Shown here one piece after another: positions 2,494-14,325 of a DNA stretch of 35,630 nt; within the stretch, counting starts at the first letter, position 1; the number at the start of each line of letters is the position of its first letter. Location of the stretch: NCBI GenBank assembly GCA_023511795.1, contig JAIMAU010000020.1:1-35630 (forward strand), written 5' to 3'. Source of the stretch: Armatimonadota bacterium (GTDB lineage Bacteria > Armatimonadota > UBA5829 > DTJY01). The position numbers and the translations under genes are program-made. The notes beneath the pieces were generated by a model. The model searched no databases. It saw nothing but the letters and a program-made list of their open reading frames with translations, and had not been told where the DNA came from.

Positions 2494-5400
2494 ATGAGAC
2501 ATACTCGGCGAAGTACTGAAGGCGTTCTTATTCTATTTGCATCCCTATTATTGCTAATGGGGTTTGCACTAGTCTATGCTGCAAAGCTCCCGCAACTTTA
2601 CGAAGGTGAGAAAGCAAACATAAACACTGCCGATGAAAATACGTTATCGGCAATTATGGGTATTGACCGCAGGCTTGCAAAACTTATATGCGAATACCGC
2701 AGAAAGAACGGGAATTTTACAGATGTTGATTCGCTTGGACGTATAAAGTTGCTCACCAAAGATGAAGCGGAGAAAATTGCTTCATTAAATGCCAGTCGCA
2801 AAATTGACCTTACAACTATTAGTCCTGAAGAGCTTTCAGCACAAGCAGGAATCAGCCCCGAAGTCGCCTATAGAATTTTGGAAGCAATAGCAACAAGAGC
2901 CCCAGGTGAACCCATAACGGCCATTCTTCTGTCAAAAATTCCTCTTATTTCTAGTGATACTTTGGCCTCACACAAAAAGATCCTGAGAGTTCGAGATGCT
3001 GAGCGAGTAATGATTTCATTTTGGATAAAAGCCTTTCTCATGATAAGCGGGTTCTTTATATTTCATTTTACACTGAGAAAAAAAGCACCAAATGCTGACC
3101 CTTACCTCATACCATGTGTAATGGTGCTTTCAGGGCTAGGATGCATAATTTTGTTTTCAATTAAGCACCCGCTTCAAGACACCGACGTTTTCAGCCGTCA
3201 AGTTCAAGGTGTGCTTATTGGCATTGTCTTCGCAATAATACCCATAAATGCAAAATTCAGCACACTGCGTCTTTGGCGGTATACTTATCTATATGCAATC
3301 TTCGCCATCATCTTAACCATAGCGCTAGCACTGTTTGGCAAAGGCCCAGGAGGAACACGACTAAGTTTATTGGGAATTCAGCCGGTAGAGATAGTTAAGC
3401 TTGCCTTAGCTTTTTTTGTTGCGAGTTATCTTGCTGACCGTTGGAGTATCCTCTCCGACCGCACTGGTCCACGTCGCCGATTTCAGCTTCCTTTATTCCG
3501 TGATATCGGTCCCCTAGCTGTAATGTACTTTCTCTCCCTCGCCACGTTTATCATGGTTAAGGATCTAGGCCCGATGCTTGTCCTTTTTGGAATGTTTGTC
3601 GTGCTACTTTACGCTGCAACTGGAAACTCTTTATTTATCGTAGCCGGACTTGGACTCATTGCATTCAGTGGTTGCATTGCCTATTTTTTAAAGCTAGGGG
3701 TTTTTGATGTGCGCGTTGATATGTGGCTTCATCCATGGGCAAATTCGCATGCGAACGGAATGCATCTTGCGCAATCACTTTGGGCGTTGGCAACTGGTGG
3801 ACTATGGGGAAGCGGCTTAGGACTTGGGCAACCGAACTACATACCAAGAGCAGGCTCAGACCTCGTTTTCTCTTCGCTAGGTGAGGAGATTGGTCTTCTT
3901 GGCACGATTTTAATGCTTATCTTATATTCAGTACTCCTATCAAGATGCTTTCGAATTGCAATTCGGGCTAGAAATGATTTTGAAAGGTTTCTTGGGGCGA
4001 GCATAGCATCACTTCTAGGAATCCAAACGGTTGTTATAATCTTCGGTGTGCTTGGAATCCTTCCGCTTACTGGAATTACCTTACCATTTACCAGCTTTGG
4101 GCGGTCTTCAATGATTGCCTCATTCTTTGCATTGGGCTTATTGCTGAGTATTTCATCTGACGGTTCGATTTACTCGTCAAATATTCCAATACAAACCAGG
4201 CGAGCACTCAACCGCCTTGCAACCAGCCTCGTTGTTTTATTACTGGGTGGAGCCGGAATATGCCGCCTGATGTGGATTCAAGGCATCCAGGCAGACCAAA
4301 TAGCTGGTTCATTAGTGATAGTACCCGACGCTGATGGCATTTCACGCCCCCACATCAATCCCCGATTAAAAGCTATAGAAGCAAGAATACCCAGGGGAAC
4401 TATTTTCGATAGGAATAACCAAATAGTAGCGTTTTCCCACAATGGGAGAAGGTTTTACCCATATGGTGGGTCTATGGTTCACCTTGTAGGCTATCTTGAT
4501 TCCAGATATGGTGGCCCAACTGGAATAGAAAAAAGCAGAAACAATGACCTTCGTGGCTTTGATAATTACTCAGACCTTCTCCCAATATATCGTCTGAGCC
4601 ATATGCCTCACTGTCCAAAGCTAAAAGGAAAAGACATAAAGCTTACAATTGACGCCAGACTTCAGGCAAAGGTTGAGAATGCGCTCAGGAAATACGCAAA
4701 TGCTTTAGTCGACAAGCGCACCGGAAGGGTCAAAAACAAAGGTGCTGCAGTTGTTCTAGATGTTTATACGGGTGAGGTACTTGCCGCAGTTTCAATTCCA
4801 AATTTTGACCCCAACAAGCTTTCGTATCACAATTGGAGGAAATATATGGCTGATTTAAATAACGACCATGTGCTCATTAACCGAGCACTGAATGGCCTTT
4901 ATCCTCCAGGCTCAACGTTCAAAATTATTACAACTGCAACTGCGCTTCAGAATGGAATTGATTTCAAGTATATCTGCAATCATAGCGAACATGGAGTAAC
5001 ATGGCGGTGGAAAGGCAAAACATTCGCACGAAAACGCATTACCGACCTCGAGGATATGTCGCCTCATGGTTTGGTTGATATGGGAAAAGGCCTTAGAGTA
5101 TCTTGCAATCTATATTTCGCACATTTGGCGATGGAGCTGGGTCCTGAGCTTTTGTATAAGACAGCAACAAAAGGCTTTAAGCTAGAACATATCCCACCGC
5201 CAAAGCTACTCGCTGAAGATTTAGCCGATAGCGGCTATGGACAGGGACGGATTTTGGTTACTCCGCTTGAGATGGCACGAGTTGCTGCAACTATTGCAAA
5301 CAACGGTATCATGATGAAGCCTCAATTTATTAGGGAAATTCGCACCAAAGATGGCAAGATTGCTAAGCAGTTTGAACCAATTGAAATGGGAAGACCTCTG

Positions 5401-5676
5401 GATTACAAAACAGCGGCTCGCCTCCGAAAAATGATGGTCGATATTACCACACGTGGTACAGCTAAGGGCCTTTTCGAGGGCATAGATATTAAAGTTGCTG
5501 GAAAAACCGGAAGCGCTGAGAACGAGCAAGGTGATAGGCTTGCTCATTCGTGGTTTGTAGGATTTGCCCCCGCAGAGGACCCCCGAATTGCCTTTGCCGT
5601 TGTTATCGAAAATGGAGGATTTGGAAGTCGCTCTGCTGGACCAGTATGTCGGGAGATAGTTAAAGCTGCTTTATAA
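2494..5676 (+). CDS. HhH - SEDS (RodA/FtsW) - class B penicillin-binding protein fusion
   Basis: One 1060-residue chain joins both halves of a peptidoglycan synthase. Residues 11-29 are a membrane segment. Residues 42-84 are a ComEA-type helix-hairpin-helix (NINTADENTL..IMGIDRRLA..I), with a second weaker HhH at about 104-152. Residues 174-193 are another membrane segment. Residues 203-562 are a SEDS glycosyltransferase (GGTRLSLLGIQPVE; GGLWGSGLG; GSDLVFSSLGEEIG, where D456 aligns with the catalytic Asp of RodA). Residues 580-600 are a membrane anchor. A short pedestal (RGTIFDRN, HLVGY) leads into a transpeptidase with SxxK at S807-K810, SxN at S870-N872 and KTG at 1004-1006. All catalytic signatures are intact, so the protein should polymerise and crosslink glycan strands. 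SEDS proteins and class B PBPs normally work as separate partner proteins. The ATG start has only a weak ribosome binding site. The HhH domain is predicted to lie outside the cytoplasm. It could serve elongation or division. Confidence 0.92.
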   Translation: MRHTRRSTEGVLILFASLLLLMGFALVYAAKLPQLYEGEKANINTADENTLSAIMGIDRRLAKLICEYRRKNGNFTDVDSLGRIKLLTKDEAEKIASLNASRKIDLTTISPEELSAQAGISPEVAYRILEAIATRAPGEPITAILLSKIPLISSDTLASHKKILRVRDAERVMISFWIKAFLMISGFFIFHFTLRKKAPNADPYLIPCVMVLSGLGCIILFSIKHPLQDTDVFSRQVQGVLIGIVFAIIPINAKFSTLRLWRYTYLYAIFAIILTIALALFGKGPGGTRLSLLGIQPVEIVKLALAFFVASYLADRWSILSDRTGPRRRFQLPLFRDIGPLAVMYFLSLATFIMVKDLGPMLVLFGMFVVLLYAATGNSLFIVAGLGLIAFSGCIAYFLKLGVFDVRVDMWLHPWANSHANGMHLAQSLWALATGGLWGSGLGLGQPNYIPRAGSDLVFSSLGEEIGLLGTILMLILYSVLLSRCFRIAIRARNDFERFLGASIASLLGIQTVVIIFGVLGILPLTGITLPFTSFGRSSMIASFFALGLLLSISSDGSIYSSNIPIQTRRALNRLATSLVVLLLGGAGICRLMWIQGIQADQIAGSLVIVPDADGISRPHINPRLKAIEARIPRGTIFDRNNQIVAFSHNGRRFYPYGGSMVHLVGYLDSRYGGPTGIEKSRNNDLRGFDNYSDLLPIYRLSHMPHCPKLKGKDIKLTIDARLQAKVENALRKYANALVDKRTGRVKNKGAAVVLDVYTGEVLAAVSIPNFDPNKLSYHNWRKYMADLNNDHVLINRALNGLYPPGSTFKIITTATALQNGIDFKYICNHSEHGVTWRWKGKTFARKRITDLEDMSPHGLVDMGKGLRVSCNLYFAHLAMELGPELLYKTATKGFKLEHIPPPKLLAEDLADSGYGQGRILVTPLEMARVAATIANNGIMMKPQFIREIRTKDGKIAKQFEPIEMGRPLDYKTAARLRKMMVDITTRGTAKGLFEGIDIKVAGKTGSAENEQGDRLAHSWFVGFAPAEDPRIAFAVVIENGGFGSRSAGPVCREIVKAAL

Positions 5677-5717: not shown

Positions 5718-6833
5718 TTGACAAAAGAATCGTTGTTCCCAGATAAACGCGAGATTGCAGAAAAAGAACGCCGTGTTAAGGAATTCATGGAACTAAAAGG
5801 GCTTGATGCTCTCGTGCTAACTACCCAAAGCAATTTCGCCTGGTTCACTTGCGGTGCCGATAATCGCGTGGCAAACGCAACAGAAATAGGAGTAGCTTCT
5901 GTGGTAATCACTAAGGACTCGAAGTACATAGTTTGCGATAATATTGAATACCCTCGAATATTTGATGAGGAAGTCGGTGACCAAGGGTTTAAGTTCAAAA
6001 CTTATAATTGGTGGGAAAGCAACCTAGCTGATGAGATTAGTAAACTTACAAGCGGCACTGTAGGTGCTGATACTATAATTGCTGGTACAAAGTTGGTTGC
6101 TGGCGATATTTCGCCGCTCAGATATTCGCTAACCGAACAGGAGATAGAACGGTACCGATGGCTTGGTATCAATACAGCTGAGTGCATGTATGAAGCTTGT
6201 ATTGAAGTCAGACCAGGAATGACTGAGCACCAGATTGCAGCCTTACTTGGCGGCAAGCTTATGGAGAGGGGCATAATACCAAACCTAATTCTGATAGCAG
6301 CCGACGAACGAATAAGTAAATATAGACACCCAATTCCCACAGAAAACACTTTGGAAAAATACGCAATGCTGGTTACCTGCGCCCGAAAATGGGGACTAAT
6401 CCTTTCAATGACACGAATAGTTCACTTTGGCTCAATCTCACCAGAACTCAGACATAAGCATGACGCAGTTATGCAAGTGGATGCCAAATTAATCGGCGCA
6501 ACCCGGCCTGGTGCACGGGTGGATTTCATTTTCGGCAAGGCAATCGAAGCATATAAGCGCACAGGTTTTCAAAATGAGTGGCACTTCCACCACCAAGGTG
6601 GTCCAACTGGCTATGCAGGCAGGGATTATCGTGCTAGACCAGAAGTTGCTGGAATCGTTGAGACAAATCAGGCTTTTGCATGGAACCCTTCTATCGCTGG
6701 CACTAAATCCGAAGACACTATAATTGCTTTGACAAATCACACCGAAATCATTTCGACCCATAAGGACTGGCCAACGAAAACAATTGAGATTAACGGAGCA
6801 AAAATTGAGCGACCTGATATAATGGAAATGTGA
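5718..6833 (+). CDS. M24 (Xaa-Pro peptidase/creatinase fold) protein lacking Asp metal ligands
   Basis: This 371-residue protein has the creatinase-type N-terminal domain (residues 1-130; LDALVLTTQSNFAWFTCG) followed by a pita-bread M24 domain. The start is TTG 5718 behind AAGGAGG (5702-5708). In active metallopeptidases of this fold, five ligands bind two metals (D, D, H, E, E). Here the His region (HHQGGPTGY, H291-H292) and the two Glu regions (VETNQAFAWNP and KSEDT) are present. The two Asp positions read T220 (LVTCARKWG) and S230 (ILSMTR). The protein is therefore either metal-independent, like creatinase, or a non-catalytic relative. It starts 41 bases after the SEDS-PBP fusion and is probably cotranscribed. 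No signal peptide is visible, so it should be cytoplasmic. The substrate is unknown. Confidence 0.85.
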   Translation: MTKESLFPDKREIAEKERRVKEFMELKGLDALVLTTQSNFAWFTCGADNRVANATEIGVASVVITKDSKYIVCDNIEYPRIFDEEVGDQGFKFKTYNWWESNLADEISKLTSGTVGADTIIAGTKLVAGDISPLRYSLTEQEIERYRWLGINTAECMYEACIEVRPGMTEHQIAALLGGKLMERGIIPNLILIAADERISKYRHPIPTENTLEKYAMLVTCARKWGLILSMTRIVHFGSISPELRHKHDAVMQVDAKLIGATRPGARVDFIFGKAIEAYKRTGFQNEWHFHHQGGPTGYAGRDYRARPEVAGIVETNQAFAWNPSIAGTKSEDTIIALTNHTEIISTHKDWPTKTIEINGAKIERPDIMEM

Positions 6834-6860
6834 CCGTTTGGCGAACAGGGGGTGCCAAAT

Positions 6861-8936
6861 ATGAAGTTTGAAAGGCGCATACACCTTCTCGCCGGCTTGC
6901 TCCTTGCAATTGCAACATTTCTTGTGTTTTGTCGGGTGCTAAGCCATGATTTCATTAACTTTGACGATGGTGTTTATGTCTATTCGAATGCTAATATCAA
7001 AGAGCTGACGTTTCAAAGTATTGGATGGGCATTCAAAACAATGCAAGCGTCCAATTGGCATCCTCTTACATGGATTTCGCATATAATTGACTATCAACTT
7101 TTTGGTTTAAAGGCGGCCGGCCATCACTTCACGAGTCTTCTACTCCACATTATGAATTCCCTTCTGCTTCTGTATATCCTAAACCGTATGTCTGGCTCAT
7201 TTTGGCGAAGTATTTTTGTGGCCACATTATTTGCGCTTCATCCGCTTCATGTGGAATCGGTGGCCTGGGTCGCTGAGAGGAAAGATGTCCTAAGCACCTT
7301 GTTCTGGATGCTCACAATATGGGCTTATTTGAGATATGTCCAATCACCCAAAATTAAAACTTATATTCTCGTAATAATCTTGTTTTCGCTTGGTCTTATG
7401 TCCAAGCCAATGCTCGTAACCCTCCCATTTGTGCTCCTTCTACTTGACTACTGGCCGCTTTGCCGTACTACGCTTAGTCACCGTCATTCACAAGTTGCTT
7501 TTCCCGTCGGGGTCAAAAAACTTTTGTTAGAGAAAACGCCCCTGTTCTTCCTGTCAGCAACTTCGTGCGCTATTACATACATTGTTCAGCAAAAAAGTGG
7601 AGCAGTGATTCCCTCTGAACGACTGCCTTTCAGCATTCGGCTGGAAAACGCCATAGTTTCATACCTTGCTTATATTTTTAAGATGGTGTGGCCTGCTAAG
7701 TTAGCTATCTTTTACCCTCATCCAATGGCTGGCTTACCTATATGGCAAGTACTTGGCACTAGTGTGATTCTAATCACAGCTTCGTTTCTCGCAATCATTG
7801 TTCTTAAGAAATACCCCTACATATGCGTAGGATGGTTTTGGTACCTTGGAACGCTTATACCAGTAATTGGCCTTGTCCAAGTTGGAACACAGGCAATAGC
7901 TGATAGGTATACATATATTCCACTTATAGGGATCTTCATAATAATTGCCTGGGGGATACCGGATTTTATAGCACGCCTCGAAGAGCATAGAATAAGCAGG
8001 GTAACAACGAGAAGAATATATTCTCCTCATCAGTTTCATTTATCTTTTCTACAGTTCATCGCATATATTTCTATTATTGCTTTTAGTGTATGTACATGGC
8101 TTCAATTAGGATATTGGAAGAACAGCATAACAATATTTAAGCGTGCTATTGCCGTTACTGGTGAGAATAGCGTAGCACAATATAATTTAGGAGTTGCTTT
8201 TGCCGCTCAAAACAAACCTGCTCTGGCACTTCCTCATTTTGAGGAAGCCGTGCGAATAGACCCATTCAATTTTTTCGCCCGCTACAATCTGGGCAAAGCT
8301 CTAGATGAAACCGGCAGGTATTCCGAAGCAGAGGAACAATTTCGCGCTGCTATACTGCTCAATCCAAACGATGCCGATTCACATAACAACTTAGCTTGCG
8401 TTTTATTGGAGCAAGGTAGATATGATGAAGCGATTGCTGAATATAAAGAAGCCATTAGGCTTAAGCCTAATGATTCCTTAATTCGCAATAATATGGTCTC
8501 AGCTTTAATAAAGAGAGGCGATTTATCAGAAGCGCTAAAGCAATATACCAAAGCCCTTAGAATCAACCCTAACGACCCTTTTGCTCATTACAACATGGGA
8601 AACATGATGGTGAAGCAACAGAAATGGAACGAAGCAATTCGCCACTTTTCTGAGGCTGTACGCTTGAAGCCAGACTATGCCGACGCATATTATAATTTAG
8701 GTGTTACATATCAAACAATCGGAAACCTCGATAAAGCATATCAAGCATATCAGCAAGCTATAAGAGCCAAACCAGGGTTCGGAAAGCCTCATAACAATAT
8801 GGCAGTCATTCTTTACACGCTCGGAGACTATGCTGGAGCCTGGCGTGAGGTAGAGCTATATATAAAATGGGGTGGCTGCCCTCATCCAGGATTCATTAAG
8901 GCTTTGTCCGAAAAGATGCCAAAGCCGCCAAATTAG
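6861..8936 (+). CDS. TMTC-like GT-C membrane protein with six TPRs
   Basis: This 691-residue protein is a paralogue of the proteins at 701, 12373 and 18498. About ten membrane segments fill residues 8-425, with the acidic pair D35-D36 (NFDDGVYV) in the first external loop and the conserved HPLHVESVAWVAERKDVLS and ADRYTYIPLIG blocks. From about residue 433 come six full TPRs (DEAIAEYKEAIRLKPND type), a degenerate last repeat and the family tail WREVELYIKWGG-PHPGFIKALSEKMPKP. ATG 6861 is preferred over the in-frame GTG 6852. The purine-rich CAGGGGG at 6845-6851 sits about 9 bases before the ATG but abuts the GTG. This is the first gene of a TMTC - DUF2142-like - GT39 triplet that is repeated downstream. 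Predicted role: glycosyl transfer from a polyprenyl-phosphate sugar on the outer membrane face, with TPRs binding acceptors or partners (inferred from eukaryotic TMTC). Confidence 0.86.
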   Translation: MKFERRIHLLAGLLLAIATFLVFCRVLSHDFINFDDGVYVYSNANIKELTFQSIGWAFKTMQASNWHPLTWISHIIDYQLFGLKAAGHHFTSLLLHIMNSLLLLYILNRMSGSFWRSIFVATLFALHPLHVESVAWVAERKDVLSTLFWMLTIWAYLRYVQSPKIKTYILVIILFSLGLMSKPMLVTLPFVLLLLDYWPLCRTTLSHRHSQVAFPVGVKKLLLEKTPLFFLSATSCAITYIVQQKSGAVIPSERLPFSIRLENAIVSYLAYIFKMVWPAKLAIFYPHPMAGLPIWQVLGTSVILITASFLAIIVLKKYPYICVGWFWYLGTLIPVIGLVQVGTQAIADRYTYIPLIGIFIIIAWGIPDFIARLEEHRISRVTTRRIYSPHQFHLSFLQFIAYISIIAFSVCTWLQLGYWKNSITIFKRAIAVTGENSVAQYNLGVAFAAQNKPALALPHFEEAVRIDPFNFFARYNLGKALDETGRYSEAEEQFRAAILLNPNDADSHNNLACVLLEQGRYDEAIAEYKEAIRLKPNDSLIRNNMVSALIKRGDLSEALKQYTKALRINPNDPFAHYNMGNMMVKQQKWNEAIRHFSEAVRLKPDYADAYYNLGVTYQTIGNLDKAYQAYQQAIRAKPGFGKPHNNMAVILYTLGDYAGAWREVELYIKWGGCPHPGFIKALSEKMPKPPN

Positions 8937-10643: not shown

Positions 10644-12365
10644 TTGCCTTCAATAAGCAGTAAAGCTATTCCACTTAGTTTCTCCCCCCGGAAGCTGGTG
10701 GTTTTGGTGGCGAAGCGCGGGAAACGCGCAACAAAGTGTCATAATGCACCTAATAAGAGCAAAATGCAATGGGCATGGTTGCTCGTTTTCATTGTGGTGC
10801 TTTTTTGTGCGACAATACGAATTAGGCTACTCCCAACGCCGCTCGAACGCGATGAGGGCGAATACGCCTACGCGGGCCAGCTAATCCTGCAGGGAATCCC
10901 CCCATATGTGCGTGTTTATAATATGAAGCTTCCAGGCACCTATGCTGTTTATGCCATCGCCATGGCACTTTTTGGTCAAAATCCAACTGGTATCCACCTC
11001 GGTTTGCTTTTCGTAAATGCTACCACTATAATCCTGGTATTCTTATTGGCACGAAAACTGTTCGACACCTTAACAGGCTTGGTAGCATCTGCGAGTTTTG
11101 GCATCCTTTCTCTTGGCGCATCTGTTCTGGGCGTTTTTGCGCACGCCACCCACTTCGTAACATTACCAGCAATTGGCGGACTGCTACTTCTGTTAAAAGC
11201 CAAAGAACTGAGAAGTCGCTCAATGTTGTTTTGGAGTGGTTTATGCCTTGGGCTTGCATTTTTAATGAAGCAACATGGCATATTCTTTGTAATCTTTGGT
11301 GCTTCCTATATTCTCATTTACAACGCTCACTTCTCTTTACGGCAAGAGAAAATTGGTTTCTTAAATCAAAAATTGGTTGACGCGGCGATATTTCTCCTCG
11401 GCGCCGCTGTCCCACTTGTTCTTACATGCCTAATTTTGTTATTGACAGGAGCACTCCAAAAGTTCTGGTTTTGGACTTGGACATACGCTCTTCAATATGT
11501 CACAGAAACATCTTTTTCCACTGGCTGTAAACTATTTAGGAGTGGCATCGGTTACGTTGTGCAGTCAGCACCCGCGCTTTGGATTTTGGCAGGGTTGGGC
11601 TTGATTTGTCTTTTTGCAGATCGAGAATGGCGAAAGCGTGCGCCTTTTGTTGGAGGGCTACTGCTTTTCTCATTTTTTGCTATTTGTCCTGGTTTTTATT
11701 TTCGTAGTCATTATTTTATCGTGGTGCTGCCAGTACTAGCTATTCTCAACGGCATCGCTGTCAGTACCATATATAATATTGCAGAAAGAATACACGCTCC
11801 TATATATCGTAAAGCAGCTGTGTTGGCATTTCTTTTGATTTTAGGTTATTCTATATTCCAGCAGAAAACATTTCTATTCAAAGCCACGCCCTGTGAGGTA
11901 TGCAGATTATCCTATGGCGCCGCCTGTTTCCCTGAGGCTCTGGAGGTTGGAAAATATATTAGGGAAAACAGCACCAAGGATGACCGAATTGTCGTCCTAG
12001 GTTCCGAACCTGAAATCTACTTTTATTCGCGTCGGATGTCAGCCACAGGATACATCTACATGTATCCTCTTATGGAGTCTAGTCCTTTAGCCGAAAAGAT
12101 GCAACGCGAAATGATCAAGGAAACAATGGCATCAAGACCTAAATTTCTAATTGCAGTTTGCATCCCAACCTCATGGATGCGCAGGCGTGAGTCACCAACC
12201 TTATTGTTTGACTGGTTTAACCAATACTCGACGGATAATTACCAATTAGTGGGAAGTGTGGAGATACTTAGCCTAGAACGAACCGAATACCGCTGGGGAG
12301 AAGAACTGAACGCTTATAAACCGAAGGCGGAAAACAGGATTCTTGTTTTCATGCGAAGACAGTAG
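10644..12365 (+). CDS. GT39/PMT-like membrane glycosyltransferase
   Basis: This 573-residue protein (from TTG 10644) has about ten membrane segments and the GT39 signature LLPTPLERDEGEYAYAGQLI, with acidic pair D70-E71 in the first external loop. An extracytoplasmic C-terminal domain carries VLGSEPEIYFYSRR and YIYMYPLMES. GT39 enzymes (protein O-mannosyltransferases, ArnT-like) use polyprenyl-phosphate sugars. The start is uncertain. No good ribosome binding site precedes TTG 10644, and the first 40 residues (basic, KRGKRATK) have no counterpart in the paralogue at 16039. ATG 10764 gives a shorter protein beginning MQWAWLLVF just before the first membrane segment. The TMTC-like gene at 12373 starts 7 bases after this stop, so the two are cotranscribed. 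Confidence 0.83.
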   Translation: MPSISSKAIPLSFSPRKLVVLVAKRGKRATKCHNAPNKSKMQWAWLLVFIVVLFCATIRIRLLPTPLERDEGEYAYAGQLILQGIPPYVRVYNMKLPGTYAVYAIAMALFGQNPTGIHLGLLFVNATTIILVFLLARKLFDTLTGLVASASFGILSLGASVLGVFAHATHFVTLPAIGGLLLLLKAKELRSRSMLFWSGLCLGLAFLMKQHGIFFVIFGASYILIYNAHFSLRQEKIGFLNQKLVDAAIFLLGAAVPLVLTCLILLLTGALQKFWFWTWTYALQYVTETSFSTGCKLFRSGIGYVVQSAPALWILAGLGLICLFADREWRKRAPFVGGLLLFSFFAICPGFYFRSHYFIVVLPVLAILNGIAVSTIYNIAERIHAPIYRKAAVLAFLLILGYSIFQQKTFLFKATPCEVCRLSYGAACFPEALEVGKYIRENSTKDDRIVVLGSEPEIYFYSRRMSATGYIYMYPLMESSPLAEKMQREMIKETMASRPKFLIAVCIPTSWMRRRESPTLLFDWFNQYSTDNYQLVGSVEILSLERTEYRWGEELNAYKPKAENRILVFMRRQ

Positions 12366-12372
12366 TTTAAAG

Positions 12373-14325
12373 ATGCAAAATCGCTATTTAGTAATTTTAT
12401 TCCTCATTACTATAACCCTTGTCGTTTTTCTCCAAGTTAGTAGTCATGAGTTTCTCAACTACGATGATGATGTGTATATTACTGCCAACCATCATGTTCG
12501 GAATGGGCTAACTTTAGAATCAATCAAATGGGCTTTTACAACTACATATGCAAACAATTGGCATCCCCTAACGTGGATATCACACCTACTTGACGTGCAG
12601 TTATACAAGCTCAAACCCGCCGGGCATCATGCAACTAACCTTTTAATCCACGTGTTGAATGTTGCGCTCCTATTCGTAGTGCTAGAAATGATGACCCATT
12701 CGAGATGGCGAAGTGCATTCGTTGCAGCCATGTTCGCAATACACCCTCTCCATGTAGAGTCAGTTGCCTGGGTAGCTGAAAGAAAAGATGTTTTAAGCTC
12801 TTTCTTCTGGATACTAACACTTTTTGCACACCTACGATACACCAAATATCCAAGGGCAACCACTTACGTTCCTGTGGTTTTAATCTACGCCCTCGGCTTA
12901 ATGTCAAAGCCAATGCTAGTAACTCTTCCATTTGTACTTCTCCTGTTGGACTACTGGCCACTAGGCCGAACAACTTTTGCTCATGAGCAACTTGCCGGCT
13001 CTATAGAAAAGCACAGTATTGGAAAGTTAGTAATAGAAAAGATTCCCCTATTGGTCTTAGCAGGAGCATCTTGCACAATGACATATATTGCACAGGGTGA
13101 GGCGGTTGCGCCGTTCGAAAGGTTTCCATTTGGTATCCGCGCGACAAACGCTGTTGTAGCATTTGTCTCTTATATTCTGAAGATGCTCTGGCCAGTTAAC
13201 CTTTCTGTTTTTTACATGCATCCTTCAACGTCTCTTCCAACATGGCAGGTATTAGGAGCCGGGGTTGTCCTTGTTTGCATATTTGTTCTTGCATTGCGAA
13301 ATGCTTTCACCCATCCGTATATCCTAGTAGGATGGCTGTGGTATTTTGGAACATTAATACCCGTAATCGGCTTAATTCAAGTTGGGGCACAAGCAATGGC
13401 AGATAGATATACTTATATGCCACTTATAGGCATCTTTATCATAATTGCTTGGGGAGTACCGAAACTGCTAGGAAATTCACGGATTGGGGTAGAAAAGGGG
13501 AAAAGGAAAAAAGAAGCTTTCGTTCCTAAATCTTTCATTCTGCCATTTGCTGCACTGCTTATTATAATAAGCCTTACGATCTCGGCCTGGTATCGGACGA
13601 GTGTTTGGAAGAATAGCATAACCTTGTTTGAGAATGCACTTAGGTCGAACCCAAACAATTATATTGCACACAACAATCTTGGGGTAGCTTTGGAAAAAGC
13701 AAACAAGTTAGAGGAAGCTGCAGCTCACTACGAAGTCGCTTTACGACTCAAACCAAATCACCCCCAAGCCCACAATAATCTCGCTAATATTTACTTCCGA
13801 ACAGGCAAAGTGGACAAAGCAATTCTAGAGTACAGAAAGGCTTTGAAGCTAAAACCCAATGATGCAGGCATTCACAATAATCTTGGGGTAGCTCTTGCCG
13901 AAAAAGGCATGCTGGACGAGGCAATTAAAGAATACAAAATAGCTCTGCAGATTAGACCAGACTACGACAAAGCACACCTAAACCTTGGGATGGCATTGGC
14001 AAGACTAGGAAAATTTAGAGAAGCTGCCGATGAAATGAACAAAGCACGAAACATTAGCCCAGAAAGTTCGGAAGGCCACAACAATTACGGTGTAATACTT
14101 GCAGGACAAGGAAAGGTTTTGGAGGCAATAGAGCAATTCAAAGAAGCACTGCGGCTTAAACCTGAAAATGCAGAGGCACATAAAAATCTGGCTGTTGCGT
14201 ATTATCTAACCGGAAAGTACGCGGACGCATGGAGGGAAGTGCAATTATACCGCAAATACGGTGGAACGCCGCATCCTGGTTTGATTCAAGCTCTTACAAA
14301 AAAAATGCCTAAGCCTCCAAAATGA
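12373..14325 (+). CDS. TMTC-like GT-C membrane protein with five TPRs
   Basis: This 650-residue paralogue has the usual membrane domain (residues 5-420) with acidic D31-D32 (NYDDDVYI), HPLHVESVAWVAERKDVLS and ADRYTYMPLIG. Five full TPRs start near residue 425, followed by a degenerate repeat and the tail WREVQLYRKYGG-PHPGLIQALTKKMPKP. ATG 12373 is chosen because the in-frame TTG 12343 lies inside the end of the upstream GT39 gene, and the resulting extra residues have no match in the paralogues. Only a weak ribosome binding site is visible, so coupling to the upstream gene (7-base gap) is likely. It opens the second copy of the TMTC - DUF2142-like - GT39 triplet. Function is inferred from eukaryotic TMTC O-mannosyltransferases. 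Confidence 0.86.
   Translation: MQNRYLVILFLITITLVVFLQVSSHEFLNYDDDVYITANHHVRNGLTLESIKWAFTTTYANNWHPLTWISHLLDVQLYKLKPAGHHATNLLIHVLNVALLFVVLEMMTHSRWRSAFVAAMFAIHPLHVESVAWVAERKDVLSSFFWILTLFAHLRYTKYPRATTYVPVVLIYALGLMSKPMLVTLPFVLLLLDYWPLGRTTFAHEQLAGSIEKHSIGKLVIEKIPLLVLAGASCTMTYIAQGEAVAPFERFPFGIRATNAVVAFVSYILKMLWPVNLSVFYMHPSTSLPTWQVLGAGVVLVCIFVLALRNAFTHPYILVGWLWYFGTLIPVIGLIQVGAQAMADRYTYMPLIGIFIIIAWGVPKLLGNSRIGVEKGKRKKEAFVPKSFILPFAALLIIISLTISAWYRTSVWKNSITLFENALRSNPNNYIAHNNLGVALEKANKLEEAAAHYEVALRLKPNHPQAHNNLANIYFRTGKVDKAILEYRKALKLKPNDAGIHNNLGVALAEKGMLDEAIKEYKIALQIRPDYDKAHLNLGMALARLGKFREAADEMNKARNISPESSEGHNNYGVILAGQGKVLEAIEQFKEALRLKPENAEAHKNLAVAYYLTGKYADAWREVQLYRKYGGTPHPGLIQALTKKMPKPPK

Follow-up and report, generated by a model that had tools for sequence, protein, structure and literature searches.

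In Actinobacteria, rodA and pbpA share a locus with pstP, pknA/B, and fhaA (PMC6554272). Fusions go unmentioned in an article on wall synthases (PMC8406291). Natural SEDS-PBP fusions, with SEDS and class B PBP encoded in one open reading frame (ORF), are known to occur (PMC10449877). The latter work does not mention a helix-hairpin-helix (HhH) domain, and HhH-less fusions are also found in Armatimonadota.

HhH domains grip DNA mainly through the backbone nitrogens of their hairpins. Among the proteins that carry them, ComEA is tethered to the membrane in Gram-positives. ComEA is an extracytoplasmic DNA binder, and Lys164 of the Bacillus subtilis protein is required for DNA binding and transformation (PMC9747964). 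In Pasteurellaceae, an external HhH with a VNINTA segment in ComE1 binds fibronectin, and the same region also binds DNA (PMC2601033).

Here, we analyzed a window of 35,630 nucleotides from an Armatimonadota bacterium (assembly GCA_023511795.1, contig JAIMAU010000020.1, positions 1 to 35,630), which encodes a SEDS-class B PBP fusion with an external HhH insert. The domain arrangement is real and conserved, and adds an unusual module on the outside to catalytic machinery of a known kind; it is apparently undescribed. The initial annotation had known of no established function for such a combination, and among the papers searched, none combined SEDS or FtsW with HhH or ComEA.

Architecture and topology of the fusion protein

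The fusion gene (positions 2494 to 5676, forward strand) is an ORF without internal stop and encodes 1,060 amino acids in the order TM1, HhH, TM2, ten-helix SEDS domain, PBP membrane helix, and transpeptidase. The SEDS polymerase domain (residues 203 to 560; positions 3100 to 4173) matched the FTSW_RODA_SPOVE profile PF01098 between residues 208 and 555 (profile positions 6 to 352 of 356; E = 6e-62), and solved RodA and FtsW structures aligned to the fusion from about residues 201 to 203 onward. The transpeptidase domain (residues 750 to 1056; positions 4741 to 5661) was identified by PF00905 (E = 5e-56), which together with the SEDS match bears out the earlier designation as a SEDS-PBP protein. 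Solved PbpA structures (3un7 and 3lo7) were among the closest PDB matches and aligned over residues 653 to 1060. In an alignment of eight fusions, D456 of the SEDS domain, which probably corresponds to the catalytic Asp of RodA, was invariant, as were the transpeptidase motifs SxxK (S807), SxN (S870 to N872), and KTG (residues 1004 to 1006), found in this order. The PBP pedestal is short, with about 212 residues from the membrane helix to SxxK; PBP_dimer was matched in part only, and the match of PBP_dimer_2 to the PBP half was below the Pfam cut-off. The fusion is a RodA-PbpA-type peptidoglycan synthase, with SEDS glycan polymerase and class B transpeptidase in one chain. It resembles the actinobacterial RodA-PbpA in its RodA-type SEDS and short-pedestal PbpA-type transpeptidase parts, but differs in being a single chain whose first external loop carries an HhH.

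Hydropathy analysis revealed TM1 at residues 11 to 29 (positions 2524 to 2580), TM2 at residues 172 to 190 (positions 3007 to 3063), the ten helices of the SEDS domain, and that of the PBP at residues 575 to 593 (positions 4216 to 4272). A fourteenth peak (residues 750 to 768) fell within the transpeptidase domain and was interpreted as a strand of its core. PBP helices run from inside to outside, and the transpeptidase is necessarily located outside. Since 12 helices precede the PBP helix, the N terminus is placed inside and residues 31 to 171 outside, on the transpeptidase side. The same location, between two membrane segments on the outside, had initially been suggested from basic residues, and these are indeed present as RHTRR (residues 2 to 6) ahead of TM1 and LRKK, containing the noted RKK, after TM2. 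HhH-less relatives keep both N-terminal helices, joined by 12 to 16 residues, indicating that the HhH is an optional insert in an external loop.

In a scan of residues 1 to 202, HHH_3 (PF12836) matched residues 39 to 97 (positions 2608 to 2784) with an E value of 1.2e-18 (67.4 bits versus a cut-off of 27), where an HhH had been recognized from the sequence alone at residues 42 to 84. The second HhH-like copy, noted at about residues 104 to 152, was detected at residues 106 to 130 by PF00633 when residues 1 to 202 were scanned alone (25.4 bits versus a cut-off of 24), whereas it stayed under the cut-off, at 19.7 bits, when the full protein was scanned. These profile matches support a first copy far above chance and a weaker second one. 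AF2 modeling of residues 1 to 202 from a two-sequence alignment gave moderate confidence (mean pLDDT, 68) and predicted helices at residues 48 to 55, 59 to 72, 79 to 82, and 89 to 100 in the first unit and at residues 111 to 118, 122 to 133, 141 to 147, and from 154 onward in the second. This predicted order is the pattern expected of two consecutive (HhH)2 units. Positions 2614 to 2949, initially given for the domain, correctly correspond to residues 41 to 152, but it extends to about residue 165, the second unit covering residues 104 to 165 (positions 2803 to 2988). A Foldseek search returned no significant match (best E = 0.6), and VIA-align ranked the Tex HhH (Z = 6.7) ahead of XcpX/GspK (Z = 6.2), where Z values below 8 are weak. 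Because these structural matches are weak, the assignment of the fold rests on the HMMs. An AF2 model of the full-length fusion, also from two sequences, reached a pLDDT of 36. A plasmid search using residues 1 to 300 gave no match.

Distribution and genomic context in Armatimonadota

Strong matches to the fusion profile were found in 61 of 291 genomes of the phylum, and N termini were read at about 50 loci; one locus (L033, from genome G064, a Capsulimonadaceae MAG of Armatimonadota) came from a contig scan. TM1-TM2 loops of the HhH type, 69 to 188 amino acids long, were present in six families (f1, which is the window's own, f5, f11, f17, f22, and f23). Fusions of families f8, f10, f34, f39, and f40 and of one f11 genome (L087) had no HhH, and in f13, f43, and f45 the SEDS and PBP genes were adjacent but unfused. 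The co-occurrence of HhH and SEDS remarked on for this single protein is thus not a one-off: RodA-PbpA-type fusions of Armatimonadota repeatedly carry an HhH inserted into their first extracytoplasmic loop. In a tree of the catalytic part, it was kept in 36 fusions and degenerate in two more (L090 and L091), and its absences in f8 and L087 fell inside the HhH-bearing clade. The tree required at least four changes among three states, or three if HhH presence was scored simply. A single gain followed by losses is compatible with it, the count being unsure owing to the long-branched L112. This fusion (genome G018; 1,221 amino acids) has a loop of 188 amino acids with two HhH-like parts.

The HhH and the transpeptidase lie on the same side of the membrane in one chain, and the PBP pedestal is short and only partly matched by PBP_dimer. 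Both observations would fit an HhH that is internal to the enzyme and, packed against the pedestal of the transpeptidase or the outer loops of the SEDS part, stabilizes or gates the fusion with no outside partner. However, HhH-less fusions (f8, L087, f10, and f34) have pedestals of similar length (200 to 238 residues) and appear intact, which indicates that the HhH is dispensable for the fold. We regard a purely internal role as possible, if rather unlikely.

The variable loop length, the degenerate copies, and the two absences within the HhH-bearing clade might instead point to a relic insert drifting in a permissive loop with no specific function. Between two species of the window's own genus, however, dN/dS of the loop was about 0.19 (0.15 to 0.27), compared to 0.09 for SEDS and 0.13 for PBP; the loop is under purifying selection, although it is less constrained than the enzyme. 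Together with retention across six families and conservation of the structural core, this makes a relic improbable.

In two relatives of the same family (L063 and L064), genes for FhaA, PP2C, and a Ser/Thr kinase lie directly downstream of the fusion, as at the actinobacterial locus, and FhaA and PASTA kinase genes are present at L111. The window copy itself is not beside such genes. Its direct 3' neighbor (positions 5718 to 6833) encodes an M24 (creatinase/prolidase-like) peptidase and is kept in the sister species. The fusion gene lies within an array of genes for membrane proteins that recur (positions 701 to 2350, 6852 to 8936, and 12343 to 14325) and contain a PMT-like glycosyltransferase part; those read to the end carry C-terminal TPRs, and the sister species (L062) has the array as well. 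At L076, L079, L086, L091, and other loci of f11 and f23, the fusion is preceded by genes that, by reading, resemble secG, tatA, and a pfkB-type sugar kinase.

Apart from the fusion, the window genome encodes a single SEDS protein, at C3:244225; a PBP lies nearby (C3:237384), and an FtsA-like match was found at C3:252341. Because FtsW and a PBP are thus encoded separately from the fusion and close to an FtsA-like gene, the fusion is probably a non-divisional (elongation) synthase. A clear MreB was not seen in the window genome; judging from size and place, the low-scoring matches are probably DnaK/FtsA-type actin-fold proteins. MreC was present in 261 of the 291 genomes, including most other HhH-bearing ones, but it was not found in any of the five genomes of the window's own family (G000 to G004), the only one to miss it among well-covered HhH carriers. 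One member of this family, G002, seems to be without the fusion.

DNA-binding signature of the fused HhH

Like ComEA (PF12836, TIGR01259), the fused HhH combines a NINTA segment and (HhH)2 outside the membrane. Its solved relatives by sequence are ComE operon protein 1 and the HhH of EEPD1. The label "ComEA-type" holds for the Pfam domain only. It does not extend to the GxG hairpins or to a lysine of the Lys164 type, which are lost in the window protein and in nearly all relatives. In the window protein, hairpin 1 reads MGID (residues 55 to 58; positions 2656 to 2667) and hairpin 2 reads KLLT, with GxG absent from both. In contrast, a separate ComEA of the same genome (C3:33528), which adjoins ComEC (C3:31980), has the hairpins PGIG and SGIG. 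We compared 39 fused loops with 23 HhH domains of ComEA/Tex proteins from the same phylum. In hairpin 1, the second Gly was kept in only 2/39 fused copies but in 23/23 ComEA/Tex domains (Fisher P = 5e-15, ignoring kinship), and both Gly of hairpin 2 in 0/39 and 22/23, respectively, while structural positions (N, A, R, and F) were kept in 32 to 36 of the 39 fused copies. An equivalent of K164 was found in a single fused copy; since the genome's own normal ComEA also lacks it, K164 is a weak criterion for DNA binding. Net charge of the loop was not informative (−1 for the genome's own ComEA HhH; median of +3 for fused copies).

DNA had been listed among the possible ligands, and an HhH that binds incoming or extracellular DNA outside the membrane as ComEA does, tying DNA to wall synthesis, would agree with the shared Pfam domain, the extracytoplasmic location of ComEA (PMC9747964), and a weak but real similarity to the comEA models of NCBIfam. 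Yet both models matched below their cut-offs, TIGR00426 as well as TIGR01259 (comE), the latter far below (39.6 versus 152.35 bits). The hairpin glycines and ComEA lysines are lost, a normal ComEA adjoins ComEC in the same genome, and the fused copy, part of a synthase, shows no comEC linkage. To judge from these sequence features, DNA is an unlikely ligand, and we give a ComEA-like function little credence. HhH domains can also touch DNA without a GxG hairpin; that the fused copy binds DNA by such a non-canonical surface, with the synthase responding to DNA in the envelope (incoming, biofilm, or surface trapped), seems slightly less probable still.

GspK-like extracytoplasmic pseudopilins of this phylum likewise have HhH domains without GxG, some of them (L152, L154, L155, L156, and L157) as several tandem units, in part with long Gly-rich inserts between. 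As in GspK/XcpX minor pseudopilins, which assemble with other proteins, the fused HhH is thus extracytoplasmic and GxG-less, but the fusion has no pilin N terminus, and the T2SS_GspK model of NCBIfam scored 15.9 bits versus a cut-off of 130. Profile scores favored neither ComEA nor GspK as its origin, GspK being the better match in 18 of 39 fused HhH. An HhH that brings the synthase to pili or a secretion apparatus by contacting pseudopilin-like proteins, as the HhH of GspK does, would suit these tandem GxG-less domains and the high structural rank of XcpX, but given the profile scores and the lack of pilus genes adjoining the fusion at the loci read, this role is very unlikely.

A candidate docking module on a probable elongation-type synthase

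Loss of GxG and Lys164, retention of the structural core, the GxG-less HhH of GspK-like proteins, and fibronectin binding by ComE1 together lead us to prefer a protein as the ligand of the fused HhH, although ComE1 differs from the fusion as a small secreted protein that binds DNA too. We infer, at roughly even odds, that the HhH is an external module, built into this probably elongation-type synthase, for protein docking or regulation. The two extra N-terminal helices hold the (HhH)2 in the first extracytoplasmic loop, and this domain would act as a protein-protein module, because the DNA-gripping hairpins were lost while the structural core was kept. It may bind a partner in the envelope or the transpeptidase head of its own chain, and docking would place or regulate the enzyme, roughly as external activators such as MreC act on RodA-PBP2. 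A general role of the HhH as a substitute for MreC was rejected, since most other HhH carriers have MreC.

Activation of SEDS-PBP pairs from outside the cell is a main open question, and the known activators are separate proteins. In the fusion of Armatimonadota, a candidate module for external regulation is part of the enzyme, for which its natural HhH-less relatives (f8 and L087) are ready comparisons. Moreover, a domain usually read as "DNA-binding" has here been put to use outside the membrane with its DNA-binding signature lost, which is a warning for annotation.
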